From a virus: DNA of 30,902 nt. Under the pieces are notes generated by a model. That model did no database searches and was not told the DNA's origin. It worked only from the letters and a program-made list of their open reading frames with translations. Position 1 is the first letter of the stretch. Each line of letters begins with the position of its first letter. The stretch is taken from positions 1 to 30,902 of IMG/VR virus record IMGVR_UViG_3300030419_001056; one strand, written 5' to 3'. A program made the position numbers and the translations under genes. This document shows, piece by piece, positions 291 through 30,902 of this stretch.

Positions 291-519
291 AGCAGTAGAA
301 GAATTAGTTAAGGTTGCTAAAGAACCTATTGTAGATTCTGATGATGATATATCTGCAGATAGATTAAAAAACGCTGCAGCAACAAAAAAATTAGCAATAT
401 TTGATGCTTTTGAAATATTAAATAGAATTCAACTTGAACAAGATGTGCTTGATGGTAAACCCTCGGAAGAACAAGTAACAGAAAGTTTTAGTGGTTTTGC
501 TGAAAGAAGATCTAAATAA
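244..519 (+). CDS. small protein upstream of the large terminase, possible small terminase subunit
   Basis: This 91-aa soluble protein is charged and probably all helical. It has a Lys-rich start, a DSDDDISADRLKNAAATKKL segment, a long helix (AIFDAFEILNRIQLEQDVL) and a C-terminal GFAERRSK. Its TAA shares one base with the ATG of the large terminase gene (TAATG at 517-521), so the two are probably translationally coupled. A small terminase subunit recognises phage DNA and recruits the large subunit, and this gene has the right position and size. No helix-turn-helix can be confirmed, so the function rests on context. The only Met is the first residue, so the 47-nt overlap with the preceding gene is unavoidable unless a non-ATG start is used. 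Confidence 0.6.
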   Translation: MNTKEKKKNIIQAGYKAVEELVKVAKEPIVDSDDDISADRLKNAAATKKLAIFDAFEILNRIQLEQDVLDGKPSEEQVTESFSGFAERRSK

Positions 520-2735
520 TGTACGAACAATCGTTATATAGAGTTGTTGAGCCAATAAAATTAAATACCATAAAAAGGCTCAATAAAAAGAAAGCTTGGG
601 AATATGGTTATAACAAAGAACACAATGTTGTTGTTATAAGTAAAACAGGTATGATTGGTGAAATATACAATATACAAAACTTACAAATAGCATTACCAAA
701 GATACCAAAAAAAGTACATAAATTTAAAAAAGATACTTGGGAAGTAACACCATATCCAAAAGAATTAAATAGAATAAAAACAATATTTGATTGGAGAGAG
801 TATCCTCAAGATTTTAAAAATAAATATGCTGGTTACATAGAAGACGAATTTAATAGACGTGAAGAGGGTTTTTGGTTTTACAACAAAGGTATTCCTACTT
901 ATATAACAGGTACTCACTACATGTATTTACAATGGTCAAAGATAGACGTAGGACATCCGGATTTCAGAGAGGCAAATAGATTATTTTATTTATTTTGGGA
1001 AGCTTGCAAAGCTGATAAAAGATGTTATGGAATGTGCTATTTAAAGAATAGACGTTCTGGTTTTTCGTTTATGGCTTCAGGAGAAGTTGTAAACTTAGCA
1101 ACAATAACTAGTGATGCAAGATATGGTATATTATCTAAAACTGGTCCAGATGCTAAAAAAATGTTTACTGACAAGGTTGTACCTATATCAGTTAATTATC
1201 CATTCTTTTTTAAACCCATCCAAGATGGTATGGATCGACCTAAAACAGAATTAGCATATAGGGTACCAGCTAGTAAATTAACTAGAAGAAATATACAATC
1301 AATAGATAAACCAGAAGAGTTAGAAGGTCTTGATACAACTATTGATTGGAAAAATACTGGAGATAATAGTTATGATGGTGAAAAATTAAAACTATTAGTA
1401 CATGATGAAAGTGGTAAATGGGAGAGACCAAACAATATTTTAAATAACTGGAGAGTTACAAAAACCACATTAAGGTTAGGTAGTAGAGTTATAGGTAAAT
1501 GCATGATGGGTTCTACTTCTAACGCGTTAGATAAAGGTGGTGATAATTTTAAAAAATTATATTATGCCTCAGATGTTACAAAAAGAAACAGAAATGGACA
1601 AACAAGTTCAGGACTCTATAGTTTGTTCATACCTATGGAATGGAACTACGAAGGATACATTGATTCTTATGGAATACCTGTATTTGACACTCCAGAAACA
1701 GAAGTTGAAGGACCGTATGGAGATTTTATAGACACTGGTATAGTAGAGTATTGGGACAATGAAGTTGAAGGATTAAAAAATGATCAAGATTCATTAAATG
1801 AATTTTATAGACAATTCCCAAGAACTGAAGATCATGCTTTTAGAGATGAAACAAAAGGTAGTTTATTTAATCTTGTTAAAATATATGAACAGATAGATTA
1901 TAATTCTGGAATTAATAAATCTTCTTTAATTTCTATTGGTAATTTTCAATGGGAAAATGGTATAAAAGATACTAAAGTTATATTTTATCCAGATCAAAGA
2001 GGAAGATTTAAAATTAGTTGGGTACCACATACTAATTTACAAAATAAAATTATAAATAAAAATGGTGGGAAATTTCCTGCTAATGAACATATAGGTGCTT
2101 TTGGATGTGATAGTTATGATATATCAGGAACTGTAGATGGAAGAGGATCAAAAGGCGCTTTACATGGTTTAACTAAGTTTAGCATGGAAAACGCACCTCC
2201 AAATACAATTTTCTTAGAATATATTGCTAGACCAAATACAGCTGAAATGTTTTTTGAAGATGTATTAATGGCAATAGTATTTTATAGTATGCCAATACTA
2301 GCAGAAAATAATAAACCAAGATTATTATACTATCTAAAAAGAAGAGGTTATAGAGGGTTTTCAATGAATAGACCTGATAAAACATGGAATAAATTATCCG
2401 TAGCAGAAAAAGAAATTGGTGGAATACCAAACTCTAGTGAAGATATTAAACAAGCGCATGCCGCAGCTATAGAAACATATATTAATAATTACGTAGGTAT
2501 TAAACCAGACGGTAGTTATGGTAATGTATATTTTAATAGAACATTAAATGATTGGTCAAAATTTGATATAAACAATAGAACAAGATTTGATGCAACAATA
2601 AGTTCAGGGTTAGCTATAATGGCTTGTAATAAAAATTTATATCGCCCTACTAGTGAGAAAACAACAAAATTAATAGATTTTGGATTTTCAAAATATGATA
2701 ATAAAGGAATAATATCAAAAATAATAGAAAAGTAA
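519..2735 (+). CDS. terL: terminase large subunit (packaging ATPase and nuclease)
   Basis: This 738-aa protein would be the motor that pumps DNA into the prohead and cuts it. The ATPase half shows a variant P-loop, KNRRSGFS at residues 176-183, in which the usual GK(S/T) reads GFS; K176 may supply the lysine, as in terminases with a displaced Walker A lysine. The Walker B strand is LLVHDE with D296 and E297, followed by a coupling-type motif, MMGSTSN, about residues 329-335. The nuclease half carries the expected spaced aspartates: D531 and D534 in FGCDSYD, and D691 in RFDATISSG. About 130 N-terminal residues precede the ATPase. The length suits large terminases of crAss-like and related marine phages. 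The stop is immediately followed by the portal ATG. Confidence 0.9.
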   Translation: MYEQSLYRVVEPIKLNTIKRLNKKKAWEYGYNKEHNVVVISKTGMIGEIYNIQNLQIALPKIPKKVHKFKKDTWEVTPYPKELNRIKTIFDWREYPQDFKNKYAGYIEDEFNRREEGFWFYNKGIPTYITGTHYMYLQWSKIDVGHPDFREANRLFYLFWEACKADKRCYGMCYLKNRRSGFSFMASGEVVNLATITSDARYGILSKTGPDAKKMFTDKVVPISVNYPFFFKPIQDGMDRPKTELAYRVPASKLTRRNIQSIDKPEELEGLDTTIDWKNTGDNSYDGEKLKLLVHDESGKWERPNNILNNWRVTKTTLRLGSRVIGKCMMGSTSNALDKGGDNFKKLYYASDVTKRNRNGQTSSGLYSLFIPMEWNYEGYIDSYGIPVFDTPETEVEGPYGDFIDTGIVEYWDNEVEGLKNDQDSLNEFYRQFPRTEDHAFRDETKGSLFNLVKIYEQIDYNSGINKSSLISIGNFQWENGIKDTKVIFYPDQRGRFKISWVPHTNLQNKIINKNGGKFPANEHIGAFGCDSYDISGTVDGRGSKGALHGLTKFSMENAPPNTIFLEYIARPNTAEMFFEDVLMAIVFYSMPILAENNKPRLLYYLKRRGYRGFSMNRPDKTWNKLSVAEKEIGGIPNSSEDIKQAHAAAIETYINNYVGIKPDGSYGNVYFNRTLNDWSKFDINNRTRFDATISSGLAIMACNKNLYRPTSEKTTKLIDFGFSKYDNKGIISKIIEK

Positions 2736-11873: not shown

Positions 11874-14800
11874 ATGCCAGAAATAAAGAATAGTTTTTTA
11901 AAGGGTAAGATGAATAAAGATCTTGATGATCGACTTATCCCTAAAGGTGAATATAGAGAAGCACAAAATATTATAATAACTGAATCTGAAGATGGTGATG
12001 TTGGTGCTATAGAAAATATTTTAGGAAATAAAATACCTTATAATGATGCTTTAACAACAGGTAATACTGGTAATAATACTGATATTATAGGTTATGTTAA
12101 AGATGTTAAAAATAATAGAATAATATTCTTTATAACTAACTTTGAAGGTGATGCCAATAGTACGGATATTAGAACAATGAACAAGGCAGATAATTTAGGT
12201 TCTGATATAACTAGTACATCTGCATACAGTGCTGATACACACTACTGTGGTATATACATGTATAGAGGTGATCAACAAGACGTAAAGAAATTAGTAACTG
12301 GTGCTTGGTTAAACTTAAGTAAAAACCACTTAATCACAGGAGTTAACGTATTAGAAGATATGTTATTTTGGACTGATAATTATAATCAACCAAGAAAAAT
12401 AAATATCGATAAAGCTTTAAATAATTATAATAGCGCATCTGATCAATATTATCTATATGAGGAACAAATAAGTGTTGCTAAAATTGCTCCATGGGGAGCT
12501 ATAAGATTAACAGACTGTGGTCAACCTTTTATTGGTGATGGAAGCACTAGAGCGTTTACTGTAACCACAGCTTATTTTGAAACATTACCTACAGTTGAAA
12601 CTGAAATTGACGTGTTTGTTAATGGATATTTAATTGATCCTGATGATTATACTTATAGTTCACCAACAGTAACACTTAATAGTAATTCAAACACAACAAA
12701 TGGTAGTAATCACTTAGAACAAAATGGCGCTCCTAAATCTCCCTATGAAGTACTTATTAAAAAGAAAACTGTATTTAGTAACGAAGTTAATATTAATAAT
12801 GATTATTTAAAAGAAAAGTTTGTTAGATTTTCTTATAGATATAAATTCGAAGATGGTGAATATTCTACAATAGCACCGTTTACACAACATGTGTTTGAAC
12901 CATTAAACGATGCTAAACTTGATTATATTATAGATAGTAACAATGATGTAAGTAAAACTGATGTTATAAAGACTACAAATTTAAAAATAATGGAAAATCA
13001 AATCAATCAAGTTGAGATGAGAATACCATTACCAGAATTAAATGAGATGTCAAAAAGTTTAACACCACCAACAACATGGAGTAATACTTTTAATATATCA
13101 AACATAGAGATTTTAGCAAAAGAATCAGATAGTCCAGCTGTAAAAGTAGTTGCTGATATAAAAGTTAACACAACATCTAGTTCAACTTTTATGGACTCTA
13201 TAGAATCATATCATCATAAACCTATTAATAATTATAATCTATATATTAAAGCTGAAGGAACAATGGGTACTGCTGGATTTGATAATAGCAATCCTAATAT
13301 AATCAAAGTATGGAACTCAGGAACTTATAAAGCTGATTACGATAGTATTACAGCTGGAGATAAATTATACTGGGAAGACTCTACAATAGGTGATGCTTTT
13401 ACTGGAATGAGTGCTGTTGATTATACTTTTGATACAGGTACTTCTGATGCTGATCCTGGAGCTGGAAAAATTAGATTTGATCATGCAACTGTTACAAGTG
13501 TGCTCAATATATATATAAATGACGCTGACGCTGGAGCTAATGATAAACATACTGAGTATAATTTAATGAAAAACCAAAAGCATAATACTGGTAACGTTTG
13601 TATGGGTTTTATTAGAGTAGCTGACAATGGTAGTTCAACAAATTATACACAATTTAAAGTTAAATCAGTAACAGAAGCTACCGGATATTGGAAATTTGAA
13701 GTATGGGATAACGGAGGTCAGCAAGATAACGGTGAGGTAGATTCTATTGTTGCGGGTAGTGGTGGCCATGTTACTATTAGCGCTGCAACAAAAGATGTTA
13801 CATTTTATGAAATTGGTGATTTGCATTCAGCTACAATTGTGTCAGTAGATGGTAACGATATTACTACTACTGGTATGACAACTAGTAGTCATTATGATAA
13901 ACAAAATTATGAACTAATAACAGTTATACCAAGATATCATCATAGACAAGTTTGTAGATTTCTATATAGATCTGAAGAACCCTATAAGGTTATACCAGAA
14001 GGTCAATTAACAAGAGTATTTGATCAAGTACCTTTGAGAGCTAAAGCTCAAGAAATATCTGGTAATAGAGTTATTTATGGAAATTACACTGAAAATTATC
14101 CTCATCCAACAGATGAATATGGCAATAAAGGTGTTAATTTTGTTGCTGCTGATGGAAGAAAAGGTAATAATGAGCATGCTGATACAGCTGGTTATTTACA
14201 GTGGTTACAAAAACAATACAAATACCATTCTGCTAAACAAAGAAGAACTTATCAATTAGGTATAGTTTTTGCTGATAGATTTGGAAGACAATCACCAGTG
14301 TTGTTATCAACAAATCAATTACAACCAGATCCTGTTACATTAGCATCGGATCAAGGTGTAAATGATACTTACACTATACCAAATGTATCTGAAAATTTAT
14401 CAGAGAAACTTACAAGTGATACTTATAGTTGGAGTACTTTACAAGAAGCCTTCGGTGTTTGTTTAGATATGGAATTTATGGATCCTTCTGGTGTAACACA
14501 AAGTTTATCAGAAGTGTTTAATAATACTATAGGTACTGGATATAATCCATACGGTTGGTATTCTTATAGAGTTGTTGTAAAACAAACAGAACAAGATTAT
14601 TATAACGTATACTGTTCACACCCAGCGGATAGTTGGAATAGTGTAGATAATAAACGAGATACTGGTAGAAGTGGTAGAAGTTGGTTAAGTTTATATGGAG
14701 ATAATATAAATAAAGTACCAAGAGATGTAAAAACTCAAGATGAAACTAAAGAAGGTATATCAGGGTCTGAAGTTAGACTATTTCCTAAAGTTATATCAAT

Positions 14801-16562
14801 GGGAGTACAAGCACCAACTGGTAATTTTAGACATTATTCAACAATGAATGATCTTGGTGTTCAAGGCGTTTATGGAGATAGACAAAAAGATTTAATTGAT
14901 GTAATTAGTATAGGTACTGCTAAAGATCAAGGATTATGGTTTACTGGTGATGGTCAAGAACATCATCCAGATTATGGATCAGCTGGATTTAATATAGCAC
15001 CATTTGTTTATGGTAAAAGAAAAGGTCCATTAGTAGCAGAGTTACCTAATATGTCTCAAATGTATGAAACACATAACCCAGCTGGTACAAAAGGAAGAGT
15101 ACAAGAATCAACAGGTGCTTTCGAGTCTCCAGTTACCACTCCACATGGAGTAGGTACTGCTATTCTTGTTTGGAACGTAGAAGCTAGTGGTCCTGCTGAT
15201 TATCAAAGCCAAGCGTATGGTGATGATGTTGATGTTATTGATGAATTTGATGTGGGTGGTACTAATATAAAAACACTTAATGATGAAGTTCCAGTATATG
15301 TTGATTCTTATGCCCACGCTACTAGAACAGTAACTTGGAGTCAAGCACAAAGTGTTAAACAAGGTGATGAAATATATTTTAGTGGATCAAAAGAAGGTTT
15401 AACTATCTTTGAAACAGAACCAGTAGAGTCAAAATTAGATATATATTGGGAAACTTCAACTTGTGGATTAGTATCAGAATTAAATGATTCTATAAAAGAT
15501 GCGGCTGGATCAGCGCCTACAAATATTGGTTGGGACACTACAGCTCCATTAGATGGTACAGCAGACGCTACTAATATAAATATTCCAGAAGGTACAGCAC
15601 AGGGGTCAACAATAGGTAATTTAGCTGCTACAGGAGCATTAGCACCTGCTGGATCTATGAGTTGGGAAATGATTTGGTTTAAAGATAATAATAATGTTGA
15701 ACATAACGATAAAGTATATGTTCAAGGTGCTGGAGCAGTGCAAACAGCAAACCCTGGTGGAGGATTTTATTATTCAAATTCAGGTTATGATAATTGGACA
15801 TTAAGAGTAAGGGCTTCAGAATCAGGTGGAACTAGTACAGTAGATAATGTTACTTTAGGAATAACAAACTCTCCACCTTTATGTAGTCACGGTGCTCAAA
15901 CTTTAGATTCTATTTATGAAAAACCAGGAGATGGTAGTTCTTGGAGTATTGAATTTACAAATTCAACAGGTGCCCAATCTCCTACCAAAAACACAGATGG
16001 TTTAACAATATCGCATAATTTTCCTAATCATACTGCTAATAATGCTAAGTTTGTAACCACTATCAATGCGGGTCAAGCAATATTCTCAACTGGTCCTGAT
16101 TGGGACGCAACTGAAGCAGCTGCATTTTTTGCTTTAGGTGATCTCGCAAGAACTGTTCAATTTACACTAGTAGATCAAGATGGTGATGGTCTATCAACAA
16201 CATCACCATGTGAAACAAGGATAGATGAGCAGCAAATAAGATATGAAAAACAATTAAGATATGACGCTAGTACTTGTGGTAATGATGATAATTGTACTGG
16301 ACCAGATGTAACAGGTGGAGCAATGTGTGATCCAACTACAACAACTTGGTATGTTGCAATGGGAACAAGTAGTTATGAACCTACTGGAGATACGTTATAT
16401 ACATTAAATAGAATATATAGTAAACCTTCTGGTAGTGGAGTTGCACCAGATGGCTATTACATGGTAGGTACAGCTGAATCGGGTAACAATATGTGTTATC
16501 GAGTTAGTGGTGGTGCTGGTTATATTTCAGCTGTAACAGGACCACATTATTGTTGTGAATAA
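11874..16562 (+). CDS. tail-hub / muzzle-type structural protein with Cys-rich cadherin-like C-terminus
   Basis: This 1562-aa protein would form most of the short tail below the ring proteins. Residues 7-55 (KGKMNKDLDDRLIPKGEYRE, then SEDGDVGAIENILGN) form an opening I recall from the large 'stabilisation/muzzle' proteins of crAss-like and other marine phages. Residues 200-300 hold a DVFVNGYLIDPDDYTYSSPT module. Further conserved-looking blocks are RAKAQEISGNRVIYGNYTEN, AKQRRTYQLGIVFADRFGRQ, and YSYRVVVKQTEQDYYNVY. The core seems to close near residues 1180-1205 with ETEPVESKLDIYWETST. After that come about 355 residues with a cadherin-like INIPEGTAQGSTIG segment, a DQDGDG loop and eight further cysteines, possibly a surface or receptor-binding extension. 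The next gene is in the same frame after one TAA. Confidence 0.75.
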   Translation: MPEIKNSFLKGKMNKDLDDRLIPKGEYREAQNIIITESEDGDVGAIENILGNKIPYNDALTTGNTGNNTDIIGYVKDVKNNRIIFFITNFEGDANSTDIRTMNKADNLGSDITSTSAYSADTHYCGIYMYRGDQQDVKKLVTGAWLNLSKNHLITGVNVLEDMLFWTDNYNQPRKINIDKALNNYNSASDQYYLYEEQISVAKIAPWGAIRLTDCGQPFIGDGSTRAFTVTTAYFETLPTVETEIDVFVNGYLIDPDDYTYSSPTVTLNSNSNTTNGSNHLEQNGAPKSPYEVLIKKKTVFSNEVNINNDYLKEKFVRFSYRYKFEDGEYSTIAPFTQHVFEPLNDAKLDYIIDSNNDVSKTDVIKTTNLKIMENQINQVEMRIPLPELNEMSKSLTPPTTWSNTFNISNIEILAKESDSPAVKVVADIKVNTTSSSTFMDSIESYHHKPINNYNLYIKAEGTMGTAGFDNSNPNIIKVWNSGTYKADYDSITAGDKLYWEDSTIGDAFTGMSAVDYTFDTGTSDADPGAGKIRFDHATVTSVLNIYINDADAGANDKHTEYNLMKNQKHNTGNVCMGFIRVADNGSSTNYTQFKVKSVTEATGYWKFEVWDNGGQQDNGEVDSIVAGSGGHVTISAATKDVTFYEIGDLHSATIVSVDGNDITTTGMTTSSHYDKQNYELITVIPRYHHRQVCRFLYRSEEPYKVIPEGQLTRVFDQVPLRAKAQEISGNRVIYGNYTENYPHPTDEYGNKGVNFVAADGRKGNNEHADTAGYLQWLQKQYKYHSAKQRRTYQLGIVFADRFGRQSPVLLSTNQLQPDPVTLASDQGVNDTYTIPNVSENLSEKLTSDTYSWSTLQEAFGVCLDMEFMDPSGVTQSLSEVFNNTIGTGYNPYGWYSYRVVVKQTEQDYYNVYCSHPADSWNSVDNKRDTGRSGRSWLSLYGDNINKVPRDVKTQDETKEGISGSEVRLFPKVISMGVQAPTGNFRHYSTMNDLGVQGVYGDRQKDLIDVISIGTAKDQGLWFTGDGQEHHPDYGSAGFNIAPFVYGKRKGPLVAELPNMSQMYETHNPAGTKGRVQESTGAFESPVTTPHGVGTAILVWNVEASGPADYQSQAYGDDVDVIDEFDVGGTNIKTLNDEVPVYVDSYAHATRTVTWSQAQSVKQGDEIYFSGSKEGLTIFETEPVESKLDIYWETSTCGLVSELNDSIKDAAGSAPTNIGWDTTAPLDGTADATNINIPEGTAQGSTIGNLAATGALAPAGSMSWEMIWFKDNNNVEHNDKVYVQGAGAVQTANPGGGFYYSNSGYDNWTLRVRASESGGTSTVDNVTLGITNSPPLCSHGAQTLDSIYEKPGDGSSWSIEFTNSTGAQSPTKNTDGLTISHNFPNHTANNAKFVTTINAGQAIFSTGPDWDATEAAAFFALGDLARTVQFTLVDQDGDGLSTTSPCETRIDEQQIRYEKQLRYDASTCGNDDNCTGPDVTGGAMCDPTTTTWYVAMGTSSYEPTGDTLYTLNRIYSKPSGSGVAPDGYYMVGTAESGNNMCYRVSGGAGYISAVTGPHYCCE
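12646..12664 (+). repeat. 19-bp exact repeat, copy 2
   Basis: Exact copy of 10891-10909, encoding DYTYSSP within the VNG...DYTYSSPTVT module of the tail-hub protein. The modules around the two copies align as proteins, while the surrounding DNA has diverged. Confidence 0.85.
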
Positions 16563-17955: not shown

Positions 17956-18411
17956 ATGAATTTAGCAAAAGTAAAATCTATTGATAAGCTACAAGAGGCT
18001 ATAATAGATAGTAATAAAAAAGAAGGTTTTTATGGTGATGGTAAAAATATACCTGATATAAAAGAAATACCTATAACACATAAATTTGCTGATCAAACGT
18101 ATATTCGACAAATGGATATGAAAAAAGGACAAGTTGTAATTGGATGTATTCATAAACATTTACACGTTTGGTTTTTATTAACTGGAAAAGTTACAATAAA
18201 TAACAATGGAGATGTTGTTGATTATATAGCTCCTTGTTATACGATATCTAAACCAGGGGCTAGAAGAGTCATATATGCGCATGAAGATTCAATATTTGTT
18301 AATGTACATAAAAATCCTTCTAATACACAAGATATAAAGAAATTAGAAAAAGAAATAGTTTCTATAACAACACAAGATTATGAAAAACATGTTAAACAAC
18401 TTAAAAAATAA
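17956..18411 (+). CDS. cupin-fold protein of the phage type
   Basis: This 151-aa protein has the two halves of a small cupin barrel. The first motif is IGCIHKHLHVWFLLTGKVTI (residues 62-81), with H66, H68 and H70 as possible metal ligands and the conserved Gly turn; the usual Glu is absent. The second is APCYTISKPGARRVIYAHED (residues 92-111), ending at FVNVH118. Cupins bind a metal and act as enzymes or sugar/ligand-binding proteins. Very similar small cupins are scattered through marine and T7-like phages, where their role is unknown. Here it lies between tail and ejection genes, so it is probably made late and may modify or be part of the virion. It begins 11 bp after the tail gene. Confidence 0.75.
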   Translation: MNLAKVKSIDKLQEAIIDSNKKEGFYGDGKNIPDIKEIPITHKFADQTYIRQMDMKKGQVVIGCIHKHLHVWFLLTGKVTINNNGDVVDYIAPCYTISKPGARRVIYAHEDSIFVNVHKNPSNTQDIKKLEKEIVSITTQDYEKHVKQLKK

Positions 18412-21202: not shown

Positions 21203-24200
21203 ATGTACGAATACAACGGAAAAGAGTATTCTTTACAACAAATCGCGCAAGCAGCAATTAAGTCGCGACTTAGTTTAGAGGATTACATCAAAAAACACGG
21301 GATTACAAAAAAAGCAACTACACAACCAGTAGATATTAATACACTGGAAAGTGAAAGTGCACATATTTCTAGAGATGACTTCAATTTCAGAGGTGAAGAT
21401 GCTGAAAGAGTAGTGGTTGAAAGATTACAGAAACGTTATCCTAAGGAAGAGTATGGTATTGAATTTAATGAAAGTGTACCAATGCTTGACTATGTAAGAG
21501 TACGAAATTCAAAAGGTGAATCTGAAAGAATACCATTAAATACTGATTGGAACTTTGGAGAAGGTGGCGAAGGTAGATATGGAGATCCATATACTAGAGT
21601 AATAAACTTCATTGAAAATTCTAAAAAAAATGAAGATCCAATAGAGAAAAAAGTATTTGGAAAACTAGGAACAAATTATGGTGTTCCAGATTTATATCCA
21701 AAATTCCAAACTGATGAAACCGAAGCAATTGTAGGTGCATCTGGAGAAATCTCTCATTATAAAATCCAAGAAAGAACATCTACAGCAGAAGAAGTATATA
21801 ACGCTACAACATATATAGAGGATGAAATAAGAAAATCTAGAAGAACACCTCAAGAATATGGTTTAAATATAGCTAAATCCTCCACAGATAGTCAATACGA
21901 ACTAAACAATTCCCAAAGAAAACAAGAACGCGACGCTGTTTACAGTAACTTTATGAATAATAATCCATGGGGTTATAAAATGGCTAAAGATGAATTTTTA
22001 AAGATTTATGATCAAAGATATGGTGTTATTCAACAAGAAGAGATTCAAAAAGAAGATTTTGAGAATACAATTCTTGAAAAAAATTTAATTACCAATAAAA
22101 AATATATACAAGATTGGGAAAGATCAGCAAATATATCTCTCGCTAGACAATTCGGTGTATCTCAAGAAGTTTTAACTAATATATTAGAGTTAAAAGATAA
22201 TATAAAAGAATCACAAACTAGAATTCAAGATTTAAAAGATAAAAAACTATTACCAGACGCTGATATTGCTGGTATTGAAAATTTAATTACTGCAGAAAAT
22301 AGAAAAATAAATAGCTATGTAGAACAAATTAATGAAAAAGCTTGGAAAACCAAAACTAGATCGGATTTTGTTGAGCCAGGAGTAGCTCCTAAATACGAGA
22401 TTTACCAAGAGTTTAATGAAGATTTAGCTAATGTGTTTATGAATGATGGTTTTTCTGAAAACTCTTCTAATGAAATGCAAGATTCATATAATGTTACAGC
22501 AAACACAATTGCTTTAAATAACATGTTGGAGCAAGTTATGCTCGATAATCCAATGATGACAATGGGTGAAGCTGGAGATAAATTATATGAGGCAAATTGG
22601 AAACACCATGAAGCTCTTTTAAATGAAGGTAATAGAACTGTTACTTTAGATTTTTCTAATTACAATGATAGAAACACTCAAAATCGTGACGGTAGAATAC
22701 TTAATCCTTATAATGATTTATTAACAAAGTTAAATTTTCCTTTAGGCCCCGGTGTTTATGAAGTACCATATAATGATTTGCATAAAGCTGGTATAACTAC
22801 TAGACGTTTTGATTCATGGTGGAAAGATAGGGGTGCTGGTGGTTTTGGTCATGATGTTATAAATGAAGAAGATTTAACTTTTGTTGAACAATTAGACCAA
22901 GCACATAATAGAAATATAGGTGAAAGACATGCTTTATATAATTTATTTAAAGTACAAAGAGATCCTAGCAAAATAGAGAAAAGAGGTGGATTGGGAGCTT
23001 TTGTTAACACAGCAACTAAATCTATTTTAACAGCCTTTGTTGATATACCAGAAGCGGAAGCTGATAGAATTGTAGCTAATTTAGGTGGTAAGAAACAAAC
23101 AACTAGATATCTATTAGATACTATGCAATCTGTTCAACATGATTATAATAATATATTCCAAGAAGAAATTAAAAGTGGTAGTTTACAAGCTTTAGAGTGG
23201 AACGAAGATCAAGTTGAAAACTTTGAAAGAACATGGGGTGAAAACATAGGTGAAGGTGTAGGACATTTTGTACCTGAATTAATAAAATTAGGTATAATTA
23301 GTGCTGCTACTGGAGGAGTAATGACATGGGCTGGTGCTACTAGATATTTAAGATTATTAAAAGAAGGTGGTAAATTTAAATTTATAACTGGCGCAGAAAA
23401 AACATTAAAAGGTGCAGAAGCTTTAACAGGTAAAGCTAAGTTATGGAATAATATTTTATACCATGGTACAAAAGTAATGATAGAAGAAGCTAAAATGTCA
23501 TTAGCTGGATTTAAACCCACGTCTGGTGCTGCGTTTTATACAGGTGGGGTTTTAACTCAAGGTTTAACACCTTTTAAACCTGGTTCAAGATTCTCTTGGT
23601 TAAATCCATTATGGCAAAAAGTTCTAAAGGGTGGTCCTGTTGGTGCAGCATCTATGGAATTTGCTACTATAACAGAAGCAGCTTGGGATGATTTAATGGA
23701 CAACGCTGATTTTAAAACTCATTTCAACGAACTATTTGGAGATTTTGATGAGGTTACAAAAAGATTTATAACTAATTCTATAGTTTTTGGTATTGTTGGA
23801 GCACAACATATAAAGAAAACTGACTTCATGACCAGTGAAGCTAAAAATAGAGCAGGAGCAGCACTACAGTTAAAAGCTCTTCAAATGCTTGGATATGGTA
23901 AAAAAGGAAGAAATAGAAAATTAGAAAATTTATCTGAAAAAGAAAGAGATAAATTTAATTCATATGTAACAGCTTCTCAGAATTTATTTAATATGGCTAG
24001 GGTTGAAAAATTTGGAAAAGATTTAGATCCTAAAAGTAAAAATTTTGAGGTTGAAATGGCAAAAAGATATGAACAACCCGTTAACAATGCTTTAAAAGCT
24101 GTTATCCCAGGATTTAAAGGAATTACTTGGAAATATTATGAAGGTGGAAAGTTTAAACATAAAAAACATTTATTTGAAAATAAAGAACACGCTGCTGAAT

Positions 24201-27200
24201 TCCATCCTGACATGGGAAAAAATGGAGGAATATTAATAGATAAATCTAAATTTACTCCCGGTAAACCAATACATGAGGTAGTTCACGCAGCTTTAGATGG
24301 TTGGATGAAAGCTCAGCCAAGAGGATTTGAAAGAAGATTAAATGCTAACTTAAGTAAAATATTTAAAAAATATGATTTAAAAGCTGAATATGATGGGATT
24401 GAAATAGGTCCTTTAAAAGACTTTATTGACGCTGCTTATGCTGGTAAAACAGGGGAAATGAAAGCTAATGAATTTCTAGCCTATATGGCTGAGTTCTTTA
24501 CAGATGGAAAAATATATGCTTCAAAAGTTACTAGAAATGCTGTAGAAGATATAATGCAAGAATTTAGAGATATATACGAGGAGAATTTCCAAGGAATGCC
24601 ATATAGTAAAATCAAAATAAAGACAGCGGGAGATTTTGTTAGATTTTTAGGTAGATTATCTCAAGGCGCTAGAAGAGGTACTGATATAACAGAAAAGATT
24701 AAAGTATTAGCTCAATTAGATAAAATAGAACTTCAAGGATTAACTAACGCTGAAGGTGGGCGAAGTAAAAAAGGAATGCAACCTTCTAAAGATTTAATAG
24801 CAGAAAGAGATAGATTATTAAAAGAGAATTTAAAATTAGTAAAAGAAAAACCTGAGGGTTGGAGAGAACAAAATAAAATAATAGCTGCTCAAATTAGAGG
24901 TATTGATAGTTCGATACTTATGTCAGAAACTAATGAGAAAGAGATTTTAAAATATAAAGAATTAGTTGATAAAGGTATAGATCCTTCAGTTCATTTCTCT
25001 AGATTAAGAGAAAATAACATGGGTATACTTAATGAGTTTGTTAAAGAAGCATATAAGGATGTTCCTGGTTCAGATGTTACTTTTAAAATGTTTGAAGGGT
25101 ATACTAAAAATAATGAACTTAATAAAATAATAAATAGTTATTTAAAGAAAGGTAAGGTTGATGCTGATGGTAATGTAGGATTATCACCAATGGAAAGAGG
25201 TGTGCCATTTGGAGCTTATTTAAGAAATACTTTATTTGGACCTAACTACGTAACGGGTAGTGGTAGACCACAAAGACAAGGTAATATTTTAAGAGCATTA
25301 CAAGGTGGTAGAACACAAGATCAAACAATTAAAACAGTTAGTATAGAAGCTGAGGGTGTAAGAAGTGAAGCTATGCAACTAGTAGATGGAACACCTATGG
25401 TTTTAGATGGTGGAACAACAAGAGGTGGTAGTAATGGACCTAAACAGGTGGAAGCTGGTTTGATACTTTTAAAAGAAAAACTAGGATTATCACCTAAGCA
25501 TATTAAAGCTATTGAAGCTAAAATTGAAGCAAGTAAGTTATCAGAAGCAAATTATAGAGATTTAATAGACTTAACACCTGATCTTACCCTTGAAATATTT
25601 GGTGGTATAAAAGAATATGTTACAAAAAAAGGTGTAACAAAGCCGGTTGTATTTGGTAAGTCAGCTAAAAATGTAGAACAAAAAGCAGAATATATTGCTG
25701 AAAAATGGGAAACATTGTATGATTTATTACCACATGGAGCTATGCTTAAAACAGGTAGAAATCAAATAGAAGGATTATCTACTGAAATTAGAGACCCACT
25801 ATTAAATGGTTTGTTATATACACCTATAACAAGAAAAGGTAAAGATGCTCAAGCATCTGCTGCTAAAACAGGTAAAACATCCGGATTACCCGTACAAAAT
25901 AAAATTAAAAACTTAACTAAAGAACAGTTTTTAGAAAAATTTGGAATATTTTTAAATGCTGAAGGTAAAGTTGATTTTAATAAAACAAATATAAAATCAC
26001 AAAGTAAAAATCTTAGAGCTATAGATGCTTTAATAACAGAAACAGGTAGAGCAATTACTAATCAAACTGTTAGACTTTGGTTGACTAAAAAAAATGAAAA
26101 AGGAGAATTAATAAATAAAGAATTATATGATAAACTTAATGGCGATGCTTTATTAGATCAAATAGCTGGTGGTAAATCTGCTTCATTAGCTTCAAGAGAT
26201 TTATTATTAGAATTACAGAAAAAAGGTATTGGTACAAATGATAGAAGTAGAATACAATTAATACAAAGATATATATCTAATCCTAAGCTATTTGCAGAAA
26301 ATAATTCTAAGGCGTTTAAAATTATTAAAGATGAAATTCACAATATATTAGCTCTTAAAGCAGAACAAGGGGTCTCTAATAAAGGATATACTGAAAAAAT
26401 AAAAGCACATCCAGAATATGGAGAAATTTATAAAAATGGATACGCTAGTCTTTCTTCTAAAAAGTTTAAAGAAAACGAAGTTGCAGTTGAACAATTTATA
26501 AAACATGCTGTAGAAATGTTTACTATAATACCAGATGTTAGTTTAATTAAACAATCTGGTAACTTAAAAATGTTATTTGATTTAGCAGCAGGACATTATT
26601 CAGTTGTTGGATCAACTTTAGCTAAAACAAAAAAGGGACAAGAAGGAGCTTTTAGAAAAGCTATTATGGATGCTTTAGCAACAAAATTTGATAAAGTTAA
26701 AAATAAAGAACATAAAAATATTTTAAAAGAAGAATTACCAAAAGAATTAGTTAAACGTTGGAGAAAAATTGATTGGGATTTTTTAAGTAAAAGTAGTGCT
26801 TATAGTTCTGAAACTTGGGGTAACGTTCATAAGGTTTGGCAAGCTGGTATAGAAGGTGGTGGTCAGAAAATAGCAAGAGAAATTTTTACAAAAAAAGAAA
26901 GTAAAATATTATTAGAGTTATTTGACTTGTGGAATTCTACTTTACAACATTGGATACAAAATGTACCAAAGCAAAAAAGTGAAGCTAAGTATAAAGAAAT
27001 AAGAGATGGAAGGTTGAGCTATATGTTCAAGCTTAATAAAGCTAATGGAGAAATTGGTACAACTGGAGCAAGAGTATTAGCACCTAATGGTTATATGATG
27101 ATACTTCCTAAAAACTTTTTTGACACAAAAGTATTTAAGGAAAAAGTAGATCAAATGATAGAAGATGGTGGATACGTTGGTGTGAAAGGTAATTTTATAA

Positions 27201-30200
27201 GTTTGAAGAGAAAAACACCTGAGTCGAGAAAAGCAGAAGCTCAAAAGAAAGTATTTGAGCAAATGAGAAAATTTGAACACCTTAAAAGTAGTAGTGACAT
27301 GAGTTTTGATTCTGCTATATTAATAGCTGATGGTTTATGGACTACAAAAGGTCAACAAGCATTAAGAAAATATAGAGGAATATATGGTCTATTATCAGAA
27401 TTTAACATGATTGATACCTCTATTATTGATGGTAAAAAAGTAGATGCCAAAGTAAGTAACGCTGATATATTTAGATTTGGAAAAAATTTAGAATTAGCTA
27501 AACATATATATAGTGCAAAAAGTGGATTTAGAAAAAGTCTTTATCAAGAGATGATAGAAGGTGCTGGTAAAAAAGAAGTTCTTAGATTAGAAAAAGCTCT
27601 AGAAGCATATAAATTAGATAGGGCATTGGAGATTGCAAAAGATCCTAATAAAAAAAGAAAAGGTATAAGTATATTTGATTTTGATCAAACGCTAGCTAAT
27701 ACAAAAGAAAAAGTAAAAGTTATACCACTTGAAGGTAAACCATTTAGAATAAATGCAGCTGAATTTGCTAAAAGAGCAGAAGCATTAGAAGCTAAAGGAG
27801 CTAAGTTTGATTTCTCAGAATTTGAAAAAGTTATTGGTGCTAAAAAAGGTCCATTATTTGATTTAGCAATGAAACGTCAAGGTAAGTTTGGTAGTGGAGA
27901 TATATTTGTATTAACTGCTAGACCACAAAGTTCTGCTTTAGCAATACATAATTTCTTAAAAGGTATTGGTTTAAATATACCAGTAGAAAATATAACAGGG
28001 TTAGAAAGTGGAGCTCCAAGAGCTAAAGCTGATTTTGTTTTAGATAAAGTTATTGAAAAGTATAATGATTTCTACTTTGCTGATGATGCAATTAAAAATG
28101 TTAAAGCTGTAAAAAGAATATTAGATGTTGTTGATGTTAAATCAGACGTACAACAAGCATTTGCAGCAAAAGATATGAATGTTGTGTTTAATGAAATATT
28201 AGAAGGTAAGTTTAATATAGGTAAACATAAAATATATTCAAAAGCAAAAGCAAGGGTTGTTGGTAAAGGAAAAGGTAGATTTAAAGTTTGGATACCTTAT
28301 TCAGCTGAAGATTTTACAGGTTTATTATATCCTATATTAAGAAAAGGAAAAAATGGAGATGCTGATTTTGCATTTTTAAAACACAATCTAATAGATCCAT
28401 TTGCTAGAGGTGAAAGAAATATGACTCAAGAAAAATTTGCTATTCAAAGAGATCATAGAGAATTAAAGAAAAGAATACCATCTGTAGCTGGTAAAGGTGG
28501 ATTACTAAAGAAGAAAATTGTTGATTCAGATGGTAAAAAAGAAGCATATACATATGAAGAAGCTGCTAGAGTTTATGTTTGGGATAAAATGGGTTATAAA
28601 ATACCTGATTTAACGAAAACAGATTTAAATATGTTAAAAAGAACTGTTAAATCAAATTCTGACTTAAGAGATTTTGCAGATGGATTAATAACTATACATA
28701 AAGCTGATGGTTATGTACAACCATCAAAATCTTGGTTAGCTGGTACAATAACAACAGATATAATGGATGGTTTAAATAAAAACAAAAGAGCTAAACATTT
28801 AAAAGAATTCAATAACAATGTAGATATTATATTTTCAGAAGCTAATATGAATAAATTAGAAGCTGCTTTAGGTAAGAACTGGAGAGAAGCAATGGAAAAT
28901 ATATTAGAAAGAATGAAAAGCGGACAAAATAGAAAAGTATTTAACAATACTTATATGCAGAAGATGGAAAATCAATTATTAGATTGGGCTAATAATTCAG
29001 TTGGTACTATAATGTTCTTAAATAGTAAATCAGCCTTATTACAGACTTTATCAATGGTTAACTATATAAACATGACTGATAATAATCCAATGAAAGCAGC
29101 AATGGCCTTTGGTAATCAAAAACAATTTTGGAAAGATTTTATATCTATATACAACTCAAGTTATTTGGTACAACGTAGAGAAGGTGTTAAACTAAACATA
29201 AATGAAGCTGAAATTGTTGAAGCTGCATCTAGAGAAAAAGGAATAAATGGAGTTATTTCATATATGCTTAAACAAGGTTTTCTTTTAACTAGACATGCTG
29301 ATAGTTTTGCAATAGCTATGGGTGGAGCTAGTTTCTTTAGAAATAGATATAACACATATGTAAATCAAGGTTTAAGTAAAAAAGCAGCTAAGAAAAAAGC
29401 ATTTTTAGAATTTAGAGAAATATCAGAAGAAACTCAGCAATCAAGTAGAGCTGATAAAATAAGTGCTCAACAAGCTTCTGGTTTAGGTAGAGTTATTTTA
29501 GCTTTTGCAAATACACCTATGCAGTATGCTAGATTACAAAAAAGAGCTATACAAGATTTAGTAGCTGGTAGAGGTGACGCTAGAACAAATACTTCTAAAG
29601 CAATGTATTATGGATTTATTGCTAACTTAATATTTAACACTATACAACAAGCTGCTTGGGCAATAAAATTTGATGAAAACGAAGATGATGAAAAACAAAT
29701 TTTTGATAAATCTGCAGATATATTAAACGGTACTCTTGACTCAAGTCTTAGAGGTTTTGGTTATCAAGGCGCTGCGTTAGCTGCTGGTAAAAATGTTTTA
29801 TATAAAATGTGGAAAGAAAGTAGAGAAGATAGACCTAAATATGAGGACGCAGCATGGGAGTTTTTAAAATTCTCTCCACCAATATCATCAAAAATACTAA
29901 AAGTAAGATCTGCTTTAAGAGCTCTTGATTACGATTTAGATGAAATGAAAGAAGGAGGTTTTGGTTTAGAAAATCCAGCTTGGATGGCAGGTGCTCAATT
30001 ATTATCAGGTGTAACCAATGCTCCTTTTGATAGAATATTAATGAAAATGGATAACATACAAAATGCTTTTGCTGAAGACACAGAGATGTGGGCTAGACCA
30101 GCTTTATTAGCCGGTTATAATGATTGGACATTAGGTATAGACGAAAGATCAAAAGAAAGATTCAGAAAAGCAAAAAAAGAAAAAGAGTTAGAAACTAGAA

Positions 30201-30304
30201 GAAGATTTAATATGAATAAAGATCCAAATATTATAGATTGGGAAAATATTGATTATGATTTTGAAGATATTGATTATGATGAACTTTTTGAACAATATGA
30301 TTAA
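21203..30304 (+). CDS. giant polyvalent internal virion protein with metallopeptidase and HAD domains
   Basis: This 3033-aa protein is the longest gene here. Residues 1-33 (EYNGKEYSLQQIAQAAIKSR and on) look like a short start motif seen on other phage virion giants. Residues 170-640 are mostly helical. A glycine-rich hydrophobic segment lies at 697-712. A zinc-peptidase motif HEVVH occurs at 1024-1028, with a candidate third ligand E1090 in NEFLAYMAEFF. Residues 1250-2150 are of unknown fold. A full HAD-type domain spans about 2155-2310: DFDQT with D2159 and D2161, LTARP at 2237-2241, and FADD with D2294/D2295. The last 700 residues include membrane-like helices near 2600 and 2801-2821, and an acidic repeated tail. 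This fits an ejected protein at the place of T7 gp16, enzymatically active at entry. No lysozyme or RNA polymerase motif was found. Confidence 0.75.
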   Translation: MYEYNGKEYSLQQIAQAAIKSRLSLEDYIKKHGITKKATTQPVDINTLESESAHISRDDFNFRGEDAERVVVERLQKRYPKEEYGIEFNESVPMLDYVRVRNSKGESERIPLNTDWNFGEGGEGRYGDPYTRVINFIENSKKNEDPIEKKVFGKLGTNYGVPDLYPKFQTDETEAIVGASGEISHYKIQERTSTAEEVYNATTYIEDEIRKSRRTPQEYGLNIAKSSTDSQYELNNSQRKQERDAVYSNFMNNNPWGYKMAKDEFLKIYDQRYGVIQQEEIQKEDFENTILEKNLITNKKYIQDWERSANISLARQFGVSQEVLTNILELKDNIKESQTRIQDLKDKKLLPDADIAGIENLITAENRKINSYVEQINEKAWKTKTRSDFVEPGVAPKYEIYQEFNEDLANVFMNDGFSENSSNEMQDSYNVTANTIALNNMLEQVMLDNPMMTMGEAGDKLYEANWKHHEALLNEGNRTVTLDFSNYNDRNTQNRDGRILNPYNDLLTKLNFPLGPGVYEVPYNDLHKAGITTRRFDSWWKDRGAGGFGHDVINEEDLTFVEQLDQAHNRNIGERHALYNLFKVQRDPSKIEKRGGLGAFVNTATKSILTAFVDIPEAEADRIVANLGGKKQTTRYLLDTMQSVQHDYNNIFQEEIKSGSLQALEWNEDQVENFERTWGENIGEGVGHFVPELIKLGIISAATGGVMTWAGATRYLRLLKEGGKFKFITGAEKTLKGAEALTGKAKLWNNILYHGTKVMIEEAKMSLAGFKPTSGAAFYTGGVLTQGLTPFKPGSRFSWLNPLWQKVLKGGPVGAASMEFATITEAAWDDLMDNADFKTHFNELFGDFDEVTKRFITNSIVFGIVGAQHIKKTDFMTSEAKNRAGAALQLKALQMLGYGKKGRNRKLENLSEKERDKFNSYVTASQNLFNMARVEKFGKDLDPKSKNFEVEMAKRYEQPVNNALKAVIPGFKGITWKYYEGGKFKHKKHLFENKEHAAEFHPDMGKNGGILIDKSKFTPGKPIHEVVHAALDGWMKAQPRGFERRLNANLSKIFKKYDLKAEYDGIEIGPLKDFIDAAYAGKTGEMKANEFLAYMAEFFTDGKIYASKVTRNAVEDIMQEFRDIYEENFQGMPYSKIKIKTAGDFVRFLGRLSQGARRGTDITEKIKVLAQLDKIELQGLTNAEGGRSKKGMQPSKDLIAERDRLLKENLKLVKEKPEGWREQNKIIAAQIRGIDSSILMSETNEKEILKYKELVDKGIDPSVHFSRLRENNMGILNEFVKEAYKDVPGSDVTFKMFEGYTKNNELNKIINSYLKKGKVDADGNVGLSPMERGVPFGAYLRNTLFGPNYVTGSGRPQRQGNILRALQGGRTQDQTIKTVSIEAEGVRSEAMQLVDGTPMVLDGGTTRGGSNGPKQVEAGLILLKEKLGLSPKHIKAIEAKIEASKLSEANYRDLIDLTPDLTLEIFGGIKEYVTKKGVTKPVVFGKSAKNVEQKAEYIAEKWETLYDLLPHGAMLKTGRNQIEGLSTEIRDPLLNGLLYTPITRKGKDAQASAAKTGKTSGLPVQNKIKNLTKEQFLEKFGIFLNAEGKVDFNKTNIKSQSKNLRAIDALITETGRAITNQTVRLWLTKKNEKGELINKELYDKLNGDALLDQIAGGKSASLASRDLLLELQKKGIGTNDRSRIQLIQRYISNPKLFAENNSKAFKIIKDEIHNILALKAEQGVSNKGYTEKIKAHPEYGEIYKNGYASLSSKKFKENEVAVEQFIKHAVEMFTIIPDVSLIKQSGNLKMLFDLAAGHYSVVGSTLAKTKKGQEGAFRKAIMDALATKFDKVKNKEHKNILKEELPKELVKRWRKIDWDFLSKSSAYSSETWGNVHKVWQAGIEGGGQKIAREIFTKKESKILLELFDLWNSTLQHWIQNVPKQKSEAKYKEIRDGRLSYMFKLNKANGEIGTTGARVLAPNGYMMILPKNFFDTKVFKEKVDQMIEDGGYVGVKGNFISLKRKTPESRKAEAQKKVFEQMRKFEHLKSSSDMSFDSAILIADGLWTTKGQQALRKYRGIYGLLSEFNMIDTSIIDGKKVDAKVSNADIFRFGKNLELAKHIYSAKSGFRKSLYQEMIEGAGKKEVLRLEKALEAYKLDRALEIAKDPNKKRKGISIFDFDQTLANTKEKVKVIPLEGKPFRINAAEFAKRAEALEAKGAKFDFSEFEKVIGAKKGPLFDLAMKRQGKFGSGDIFVLTARPQSSALAIHNFLKGIGLNIPVENITGLESGAPRAKADFVLDKVIEKYNDFYFADDAIKNVKAVKRILDVVDVKSDVQQAFAAKDMNVVFNEILEGKFNIGKHKIYSKAKARVVGKGKGRFKVWIPYSAEDFTGLLYPILRKGKNGDADFAFLKHNLIDPFARGERNMTQEKFAIQRDHRELKKRIPSVAGKGGLLKKKIVDSDGKKEAYTYEEAARVYVWDKMGYKIPDLTKTDLNMLKRTVKSNSDLRDFADGLITIHKADGYVQPSKSWLAGTITTDIMDGLNKNKRAKHLKEFNNNVDIIFSEANMNKLEAALGKNWREAMENILERMKSGQNRKVFNNTYMQKMENQLLDWANNSVGTIMFLNSKSALLQTLSMVNYINMTDNNPMKAAMAFGNQKQFWKDFISIYNSSYLVQRREGVKLNINEAEIVEAASREKGINGVISYMLKQGFLLTRHADSFAIAMGGASFFRNRYNTYVNQGLSKKAAKKKAFLEFREISEETQQSSRADKISAQQASGLGRVILAFANTPMQYARLQKRAIQDLVAGRGDARTNTSKAMYYGFIANLIFNTIQQAAWAIKFDENEDDEKQIFDKSADILNGTLDSSLRGFGYQGAALAAGKNVLYKMWKESREDRPKYEDAAWEFLKFSPPISSKILKVRSALRALDYDLDEMKEGGFGLENPAWMAGAQLLSGVTNAPFDRILMKMDNIQNAFAEDTEMWARPALLAGYNDWTLGIDERSKERFRKAKKEKELETRRRFNMNKDPNIIDWENIDYDFEDIDYDELFEQYD
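30242..30283 (+). repeat. 21-bp imperfect tandem repeat at the acidic C-terminus of the giant protein
   Basis: Units 30242-30262 and 30263-30283 encode ENIDYDF and EDIDYDE. The last twenty-odd residues hold about a dozen acidic and several aromatic residues and no basic one, in contrast to the Lys/Arg-rich segment just before, and could be a docking or packaging tag. Confidence 0.75.
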
Positions 30305-30347
30305 AAACAAACTAAAACAAGTAATAATATAAAAAAAGACTTAAACT

Positions 30348-30902
30348 ATGAGAATACTATTAATAACACTAATGTTACTACTTTCTAGTAACACACAAGC
30401 ACAATTTTTTAAGGATGTATATAAAGATTTCCTTAAATACGGAACAGTTTATGCAGCTGGTAACGTAGGAAACTCATATATAACTAGTAGACCTACGTTT
30501 TTTATTAGAACAGATCCTGATGATTTATATGCAATACCTAATGTAATTGATGAAACAGTTTATCATCCATTTGATTATAGATATGGTATTGGTATAAGGA
30601 AATTAGCTAGATTTGACTATGAAGTTAAAGGTTCAAACTTTTATAATGGTGTAGGTGAAGATGAAAACAATATTGGTTTATCTGCTCCAACCGCTGCTAT
30701 AAAAGGTTTAGAATATTTAATTCATTATGAAAAAGAACGAAGACGTGGAGAAGAATGGATTAATTCTAGATACTTTGTAAGACACACAGGTAAATATCAT
30801 ATTGCCAAAGTAGAACAAAGAGAACAAGGTAATGTAGATTTTAAATATTTTTCTGCTGAAGCTAGAGCTAGATTACCTATTGGTAAAAAATTTAGTGTAT
30901 CA
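30348..30902 (+). CDS. exported, probably outer-membrane-associated protein (5' part only)
   Basis: The frame is open from the ATG at 30348 to the right edge of the window (185 codons, no stop). Residues 1-18 form a clear Sec signal peptide: MR, a hydrophobic core ILLITLMLLLS, then SNTQA cut before QFF. There is no lipobox cysteine, so it is not a lipoprotein. The mature part is aromatic and basic, with alternating strands such as FDYRYGIGIRKLARFDYEVK and FKYFSAEARARLPIGKKFSV, the kind of amphipathic strands found in outer-membrane beta barrels. It follows the giant protein gene by 43 bp and looks like the next gene of the late cluster. Possible roles are receptor masking, superinfection exclusion or envelope remodelling; none can be shown. 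Confidence 0.75.
   Translation, partial: MRILLITLMLLLSSNTQAQFFKDVYKDFLKYGTVYAAGNVGNSYITSRPTFFIRTDPDDLYAIPNVIDETVYHPFDYRYGIGIRKLARFDYEVKGSNFYNGVGEDENNIGLSAPTAAIKGLEYLIHYEKERRRGEEWINSRYFVRHTGKYHIAKVEQREQGNVDFKYFSAEARARLPIGKKFSVS

Follow-up and report, generated by a model that had tools for sequence, protein, structure and literature searches.

A predicted Sec-exported outer-membrane barrel with two linked partner genes in phages of marine Flavobacteriia: a candidate spanin-like envelope module

Results

The stretch of DNA analyzed here, termed the window, comprises 30,902 nucleotides (positions 1 to 30,902 of IMG/VR virus record IMGVR_UViG_3300030419_001056) and is the late region of a phage. 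It encodes the terminase large subunit TerL, used as a lineage marker (519..2735 on the plus strand; phrog_6681, E=3.6e-167), a portal protein (phrog_6547) and a capsid-type structural protein (phrog_13704), followed by a muzzle-matching protein and a giant protein of 3033 aa (21203..30304, plus strand) that, judged by its position, is probably a virion or ejection protein. After a gap of 43 bp (30305..30347, plus strand, read from the sequence) the 5' part of a further plus-strand gene, hereafter barrel for its predicted fold, opens with an ATG and remains stop-free for 185 codons up to the window end (30348..30902), where it is cut by the end of the contig. Its first 18 codons (30348..30401, plus strand) encode the signal peptide MRILLITLMLLLSSNTQA, in which a charged start, a hydrophobic core and a small-x-A site are of the Sec (signal peptidase I) type, with cleavage at TQA↓Q leaving Q as the first residue.

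Several other window genes have features of their own. The N-terminal 200 residues of the muzzle-matching protein (11874-16562, plus strand) match the Crassvirus muzzle PF25731 partially (E 1.6e-12), a sequence match that would tie the window to crAss-like tail architecture. A 151-aa protein inside the structural cluster (17956-18411, plus strand) looks cupin-like by eye, and the giant protein contains the motifs HEVVH and FDFDQTLAN, by eye metalloprotease-like and HAD-like; neither protein has a Pfam match.

The signal peptide in the window was called by eye from the sequence, and its relatives were scored with a simple regular expression, by which an AxA↓Q-like site is present in 101 of 102 distinct complete proteins. 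These full-length relatives span 389-456 aa, so that the window holds ~47% of the protein; the nearest of them, L004 (IMG/VR 3300001683_000131; 390 aa), is 87% identical to the window fragment over their common part. A pattern scan of IMG/VR gave 46 matches, 38 of which encode barrel relatives (37 loci), and an alignment-query scan gave 587 stretches, 537 of them confirmed to encode a barrel relative, of which 80 were retained for analysis; an extra IMG/VR scan with a divergent barrel member as the query supplied 25 loci. Given the proportion of matches that encode relatives in both scans and the near-universal cleavage site, the open reading frame and its signal peptide are beyond chance. Sec export with cleavage at TQA↓Q, as proposed in a first-pass annotation of this DNA, is thus upheld, and a loss of the signal peptide among homologs, which that annotation would have taken as contrary evidence, did not occur.

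Profiles for barrel and for two unnamed genes, here termed tmcc and trx, were each built from four seeds, iterated, and run over all open reading frames of the fetched loci, which comprise 118 de-duplicated loci, 63 of them with at least 3 kb on either side of barrel. All 63 contain the complete set of barrel, tmcc and trx. The order is barrel-tmcc-trx in 31 loci, in another 11 with tandem tmcc and in 3 with a later extra tmcc, and tmcc-trx-barrel in 17, plus 1 with a second pair; the gaps are tiny (medians 2, -1 and 2 bp). Because of synteny within each lineage, the 63 loci are not independent. A second search was run from tmcc, so that loci were not chosen by barrel, and 78 of its 79 loci with flanks of at least 3.5 kb harbor both barrel and trx; the exception, L214 (a 106-kb contig), carries tmcc and trx with no adjacent barrel, the best match elsewhere on it being marginal (E 1e-3). 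We regard the three-gene linkage, examined for the present barrel family alone among phage barrels, as well supported. Second and sometimes distant copies of tmcc occur in L134, L137 and L142 and tandem copies in loci such as L011, L014, L057 and L092, and an N-terminal insert of the DxDGDGK type is present in some tmcc proteins.

The tmcc product is a small protein with one transmembrane (TM) helix and a coiled coil; a single TM helix is predicted in 117 of 117 distinct sequences and a heptad pattern is found in 67% (p<0.05). Its positive-inside bias is weak, with a mean K/R count of 2.77 before and 2.0 after the TM helix (before exceeding after in 82 of 117), so that the location of the coil on the periplasmic side is only putative. 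The trx product is an exported thioredoxin-like protein that passes the PF00085 cut-off of 23.5 in all three sequences tested (29.0, 27.3 and 25.3). It has the thioredoxin fold by profile but lacks the redox-active CxxC motif of thioredoxin, which was found in none of 97 distinct sequences, the active-site position often reading like FNEANC. Lacking CxxC, trx is probably a binding domain.

The fold of barrel was modeled with AlphaFold2 on L004, which stands in for the window protein, using a 70-sequence alignment (pLDDT 76.5, pTM 0.66); an earlier model from 23 sequences (pLDDT 65.8) is superseded by it. The model is a closed barrel of 12 long strands, an even number (residues 33-41, 76-85, 117-129, 132-144, 148-157, 162-175, 179-190, 283-298, 301-310, 347-357, 362-373 and 376-387). 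Residues 191-282 form a well-predicted insert of 92 residues, made of a hairpin and a long helix, and residues 93-109 are poorly predicted. In 10 of the 12 strands the odd/even hydropathy difference exceeds the control mean (1.16), and three strands (117-157) have two polar faces. Among the best 50 PDB structure matches after re-alignment almost all are outer-membrane barrels, including CymA (Z 11.7, 5.6 Å over 208 residues), TamA (Z 11.6, 4.0 Å over 181 residues), BamA, Omp33 (Z 10.9) and OmpG (Z 10.2). Foldseek matches include NanC and others, at query TM-scores of 0.18-0.28 in the top ten rows, low values that support the fold class and no specific relative; VIA-align and Foldseek matches inform on fold only, and the lack of an enzyme family among them is no evidence. 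On the strength of this model, the assignment of the gene product as a predicted Sec-exported outer-membrane β-barrel is well supported, in agreement with the barrel suggested by the first-pass annotation, and the modeling of L004 returned a barrel and not a soluble enzyme.

In E. coli, an aromatic C-terminal residue usually serves as the signal for outer-membrane targeting. One of 102 barrels ends in such a residue (F), most of the others ending in TFR and some in xRL, TLK, TFK or TLR; the rule is that of E. coli and may not be that of Flavobacteriia. If the N-terminus is periplasmic, strand parity would place the two long inserts (L004 191-282 and 311-346) outside the cell. Their mean entropies are 1.24 and 1.03 bits versus 0.79 bits in the strands; the inserts are less conserved than the strands, yet conserved and not hypervariable.

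Several His, Asp and Glu residues are invariant in the 70 sequences (H143, H148, H190, H314, D257, D293, D347, E119, E125 and E369 in L004 numbering), and many invariant charged residues are located in strands. Such residues could be those of a barrel enzyme that acts directly on the outer membrane in lysis, as a lipase, deacylase or protease would, with tmcc and trx as accessories. Barrel enzymes with 12 strands exist, as exemplified by OMPLA, which appears low in the Foldseek list (rank 45). However, neither a family profile nor a near structural match links barrel to any such enzyme and no catalytic set is assignable, and we consider an enzymatic barrel very unlikely.

Searches for named relatives with barrel against Pfam, PHROGs and NCBIfam profiles gave scattered weak matches, none of them significant; a match to Apq12 at 6.8e-4 was seen in one of 23 barrel members and in no other. 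No convincing relative was found by PDB sequence search or by tblastn against INPHARED phage isolates with the window fragment, L004, L146 and a consensus, and tmcc and trx (one member each, from L044) had no INPHARED match at E 0.1. The examined parts of Elemovirus elemoE, ctfjg026 and phi38:1 yielded none of the three genes; elemoE gp33 was considered as a positional counterpart of barrel and rejected, since it bears no signal peptide and by eye resembles a fibre-type protein. The bacterial relatives envisaged by the first-pass annotation did not emerge either: among 295 genomes of the class of G039 there was a single match, to a phage-like contig. Lom of phage lambda is a phage-encoded outer-membrane barrel, and phage-made exported barrels are likewise represented in BFVD by viral porin- and OmpC-like proteins and by cyanophage OMP-like domains, but the matches of these named entries to the window family are weak (E 1.4e-3 or worse), with no sign of a family relation. 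Among viral structures, the unnamed 342-aa BFVD entry A0A516LKJ4 matches best (E 1.6e-26, 25% identity, TM 0.58/0.65) and is probably a distant homologue. No description of a module of barrel, tmcc and trx was found in the open-access literature, subscription papers lying mostly outside that scope.

The window TerL matches 87 phage records, of which 86 are named for Flavobacterium, Cellulophaga, Tenacibaculum or Maribacter, bearing out an earlier guess at a Flavobacteriia host. TerL is at 45-62% to Elemovirus and ctfjg026, and the window structural protein has ~40% identity to Elemovirus and 36% to Cellulophaga phage phi38:1, a phage that passages of Nishimura et al. (PMC5332604) place in 'group 2' of putative Flavobacteriaceae phages. 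By these similarities the window appears to fit the group containing phi38:1, an assignment made in this analysis. The trio itself is present in two phage lineages, one phi38:1/Elemovirus-like and the other T4-like: among 39 records, 26 carry the window's TerL, six carry Gp23, the T4 major capsid protein, none carries both and seven carry neither, and Gp23 is found in a further four of nine records derived from the tmcc search. The existence of T4-like viruses among those of marine Bacteroidetes was predicted earlier (PMC7198788).

Exchange between the lineages is suggested by three loci, L129, L130 and L133, whose barrels share 85-88% identity with those of the clade containing the T4-like records and whose trx proteins are nearest to trx of the podovirus-type set. 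L130 and L133 belong to records with the window's TerL; their barrels share 86-87% identity with the closest barrel from a Gp23 record, compared with 54-65% for other TerL records, and their trx proteins are at 57-62% to the nearest Gp23 record versus 71-74% to a TerL record. These affinities point to a probable transfer of the barrel gene between lineages that left its trx behind, and the mismatch in the three loci implies that the pairing of barrel with its partners is not lock-and-key.

These observations bear on a role in superinfection exclusion or receptor masking, in which outside loops of the barrel would occupy receptors or hide them from other phages or lysis debris. The two large inserts placed outside the cell by strand parity and the expected outer-membrane location are in keeping with such a mask. 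A lone mask would, however, have no need of inner-membrane and periplasmic partners, yet barrel is linked to both in 63 of 63 loci and, in the search from tmcc, in 78 of 79; moreover, the loops are conserved, and one barrel family serves podovirus-type and T4-like phages, for which the receptor need not be common. We thus deem masking unlikely, and whereas the late change of the envelope put forward in the first-pass annotation is compatible with the evidence, its more specific suggestion of receptor blocking is not supported.

The same annotation had regarded the gene as lying outside the lysis genes, a view that the loci of its relatives contradict. A family-supported lysin is located within 5 kb of barrel in 50 of 63 loci (M15 peptidase/phrog_894 in 38, amidase/phrog_822 in 6 and phrog_33083-like in 6), and a family-supported phrog_3427 holin is found in 16 of 63, families being assigned by testing one representative per cluster. 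A count of 57/63 for endolysin or holin was discarded in favor of 50/63 since clusters 6 and 38 have only a two-TM look and no family support. Lipobox proteins are encoded near 29 of the 63 barrels and could be ordinary o-spanins. A proline-rich lipobox protein, cluster 8, is a possible ordinary o-spanin that occurs in 33 of 118 loci (e.g. L051:9648-10079 (+)).

Sequence distances of barrel correlate with those of trx (0.51), tmcc (0.427) and the M15 endolysin (0.66) and hardly with those of the giant protein (0.084), and when only the 48 loci that carry an M15 as well as a giant gene are taken, the respective values are 0.60, 0.49, 0.57 and 0.05. The correlation between tmcc and trx is 0.85, well above that of barrel with tmcc (0.43); the barrel-tmcc value uses the tmcc copy adjoining trx, and a different tandem copy in some loci gave 0.197. 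As the loci are related by descent, all of these values are descriptive. They indicate that barrel evolves with the lysis and envelope genes and not with its virion neighbor. This weighs against the proposal that barrel, following the giant internal virion protein gene, is a virion or DNA-entry component, an idea consistent with its position immediately 3' of the giant gene, seen in the window and shared by many podovirus-type relatives, where the giant cluster lies directly 5' of barrel. Against it stand the signal peptide, the placement of barrel among nucleotide-metabolism or lysis genes in other relatives, and a divergence that does not track the giant gene (r 0.08), and we find a virion role highly improbable.

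Genes with a possible bearing on the envelope also occur near the module. A KDO-8-phosphate synthase above the NCBIfam cut-off (L103:5895-6647 (-); 19 of 118 loci), a KdsB-like, CMP-KDO-synthetase-like cytidylyltransferase (L064:13046-13693 (-); 12 of 118) and a GT29 sialyltransferase-like protein (L073:5656-6444 (-); 32 of 118) are encoded on the opposite strand and constitute possible instances of phage-driven LPS-core remodelling. A PAP2-superfamily phosphatase is close to trx, often directly 3' (L139:10034-10681 (+) and 8 further loci; 9 of 118). Such neighbors in some relatives, together with fold matches to the substrate channels CymA, NanC and chitoporin, would suit a module that remodels the envelope or forms a channel apart from lysis, that is, a phage porin that feeds cells or a lipid- or LPS-modifying assembly that alters LPS. 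Each of these genes is confined to a minority of loci and the first three are on the opposite strand, whereas 50 of 63 loci have a lysin no more than 5 kb away; in addition, the many invariant charged strand residues hint at a closed and not a wide-open pore. A remodelling or channel function apart from lysis is, in our estimate, quite unlikely.

Discussion

Our best reading casts barrel as the outer-membrane component of an envelope module of three proteins that would act late in lysis in a spanin-like role, a reading we hold to be evenly poised between right and wrong. In this mechanism, tmcc would be the inner-membrane component with its coiled coil, trx a periplasmic component serving as a redox-dead binding domain, and barrel the outer-membrane component in place of a small lipoprotein. 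The three proteins would build, or act together to power, a periplasm-spanning bridge by which the outer membrane is opened once holin and endolysin have acted, a task that falls to spanins in other phages of Gram-negative hosts. The expected order of tmcc in the inner membrane, trx in the periplasm and barrel in the outer membrane, combined with the lysis neighborhood, suggests such a trans-envelope lysis device, in which contact among the three proteins, late timing and disruption of the outer membrane are presumed.

The module is best read as spanin-like in role and not as a spanin by membership. Passages of PMC6116005 describe spanins as acting via an inner-membrane coiled coil and an outer-membrane lipoprotein. 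Like the two-component spanins Rz/Rz1, the module combines a small inner-membrane coiled-coil protein with one TM helix and an outer-membrane partner, and like them it neighbors genes for endolysin and holin (50/63 loci with a lysin at up to 5 kb, 16/63 with a holin). The i-spanin feature of one N-terminal TM helix and a coiled coil is present in tmcc, the periplasmic side of the coil being putative. The o-spanin feature is not: where an o-spanin is a small lipoprotein with a lipobox, barrel is a protein of 390 aa with a signal-peptidase-I-type site and no lipobox. A further difference from the two-component spanins is the third protein found here, the exported thioredoxin-like trx. No significant sequence relation was detected between tmcc and the Rz-like spanin family phrog_739 (E=0.046). 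As a detector of spanins, phrog_739 was rejected, since it matched 4 of 25 records at E 1e-3 but also 9 of 14 control genomes.

Unimolecular spanins are reported for Bacteroidetes phages in parts of PMC8776804 and are, according to sections of a survey (PMC12596118), the only kind that these phages use. They share with the present module the host group and the step of infection. A unimolecular spanin joins an N-terminal lipobox and a C-terminal TM helix in one protein, both of which barrel lacks, and a crude scan for open reading frames with a lipobox and a C-terminal TM helix found none within 5 kb in the 63 loci.

Several observations hold our confidence in the bridge mechanism at an even level: the inserts outside the cell, which a periplasmic bridge would not need, the want of an aromatic C-terminus, the tmcc and trx pair without barrel in L214, the barrel swap without trx, and the lipobox proteins at 29 of 63 barrels. 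More tentatively still, and with rather more doubt than belief, we propose that the trio may be a new three-protein machine for breaching the outer membrane in phages of marine Flavobacteriia, in which the barrel replaces the o-spanin, and that it may represent a new spanin-like class recombined between T4-like and phi38:1-like phages.

How phages of the Bacteroidota, a dominant phylum in the sea and in the gut, break the outer membrane is poorly known. The linked barrel trio, which many uncultivated marine phages from two unrelated lineages carry, offers a concrete and testable candidate and, if the proposal is true, would give a shared function to three unannotated families.
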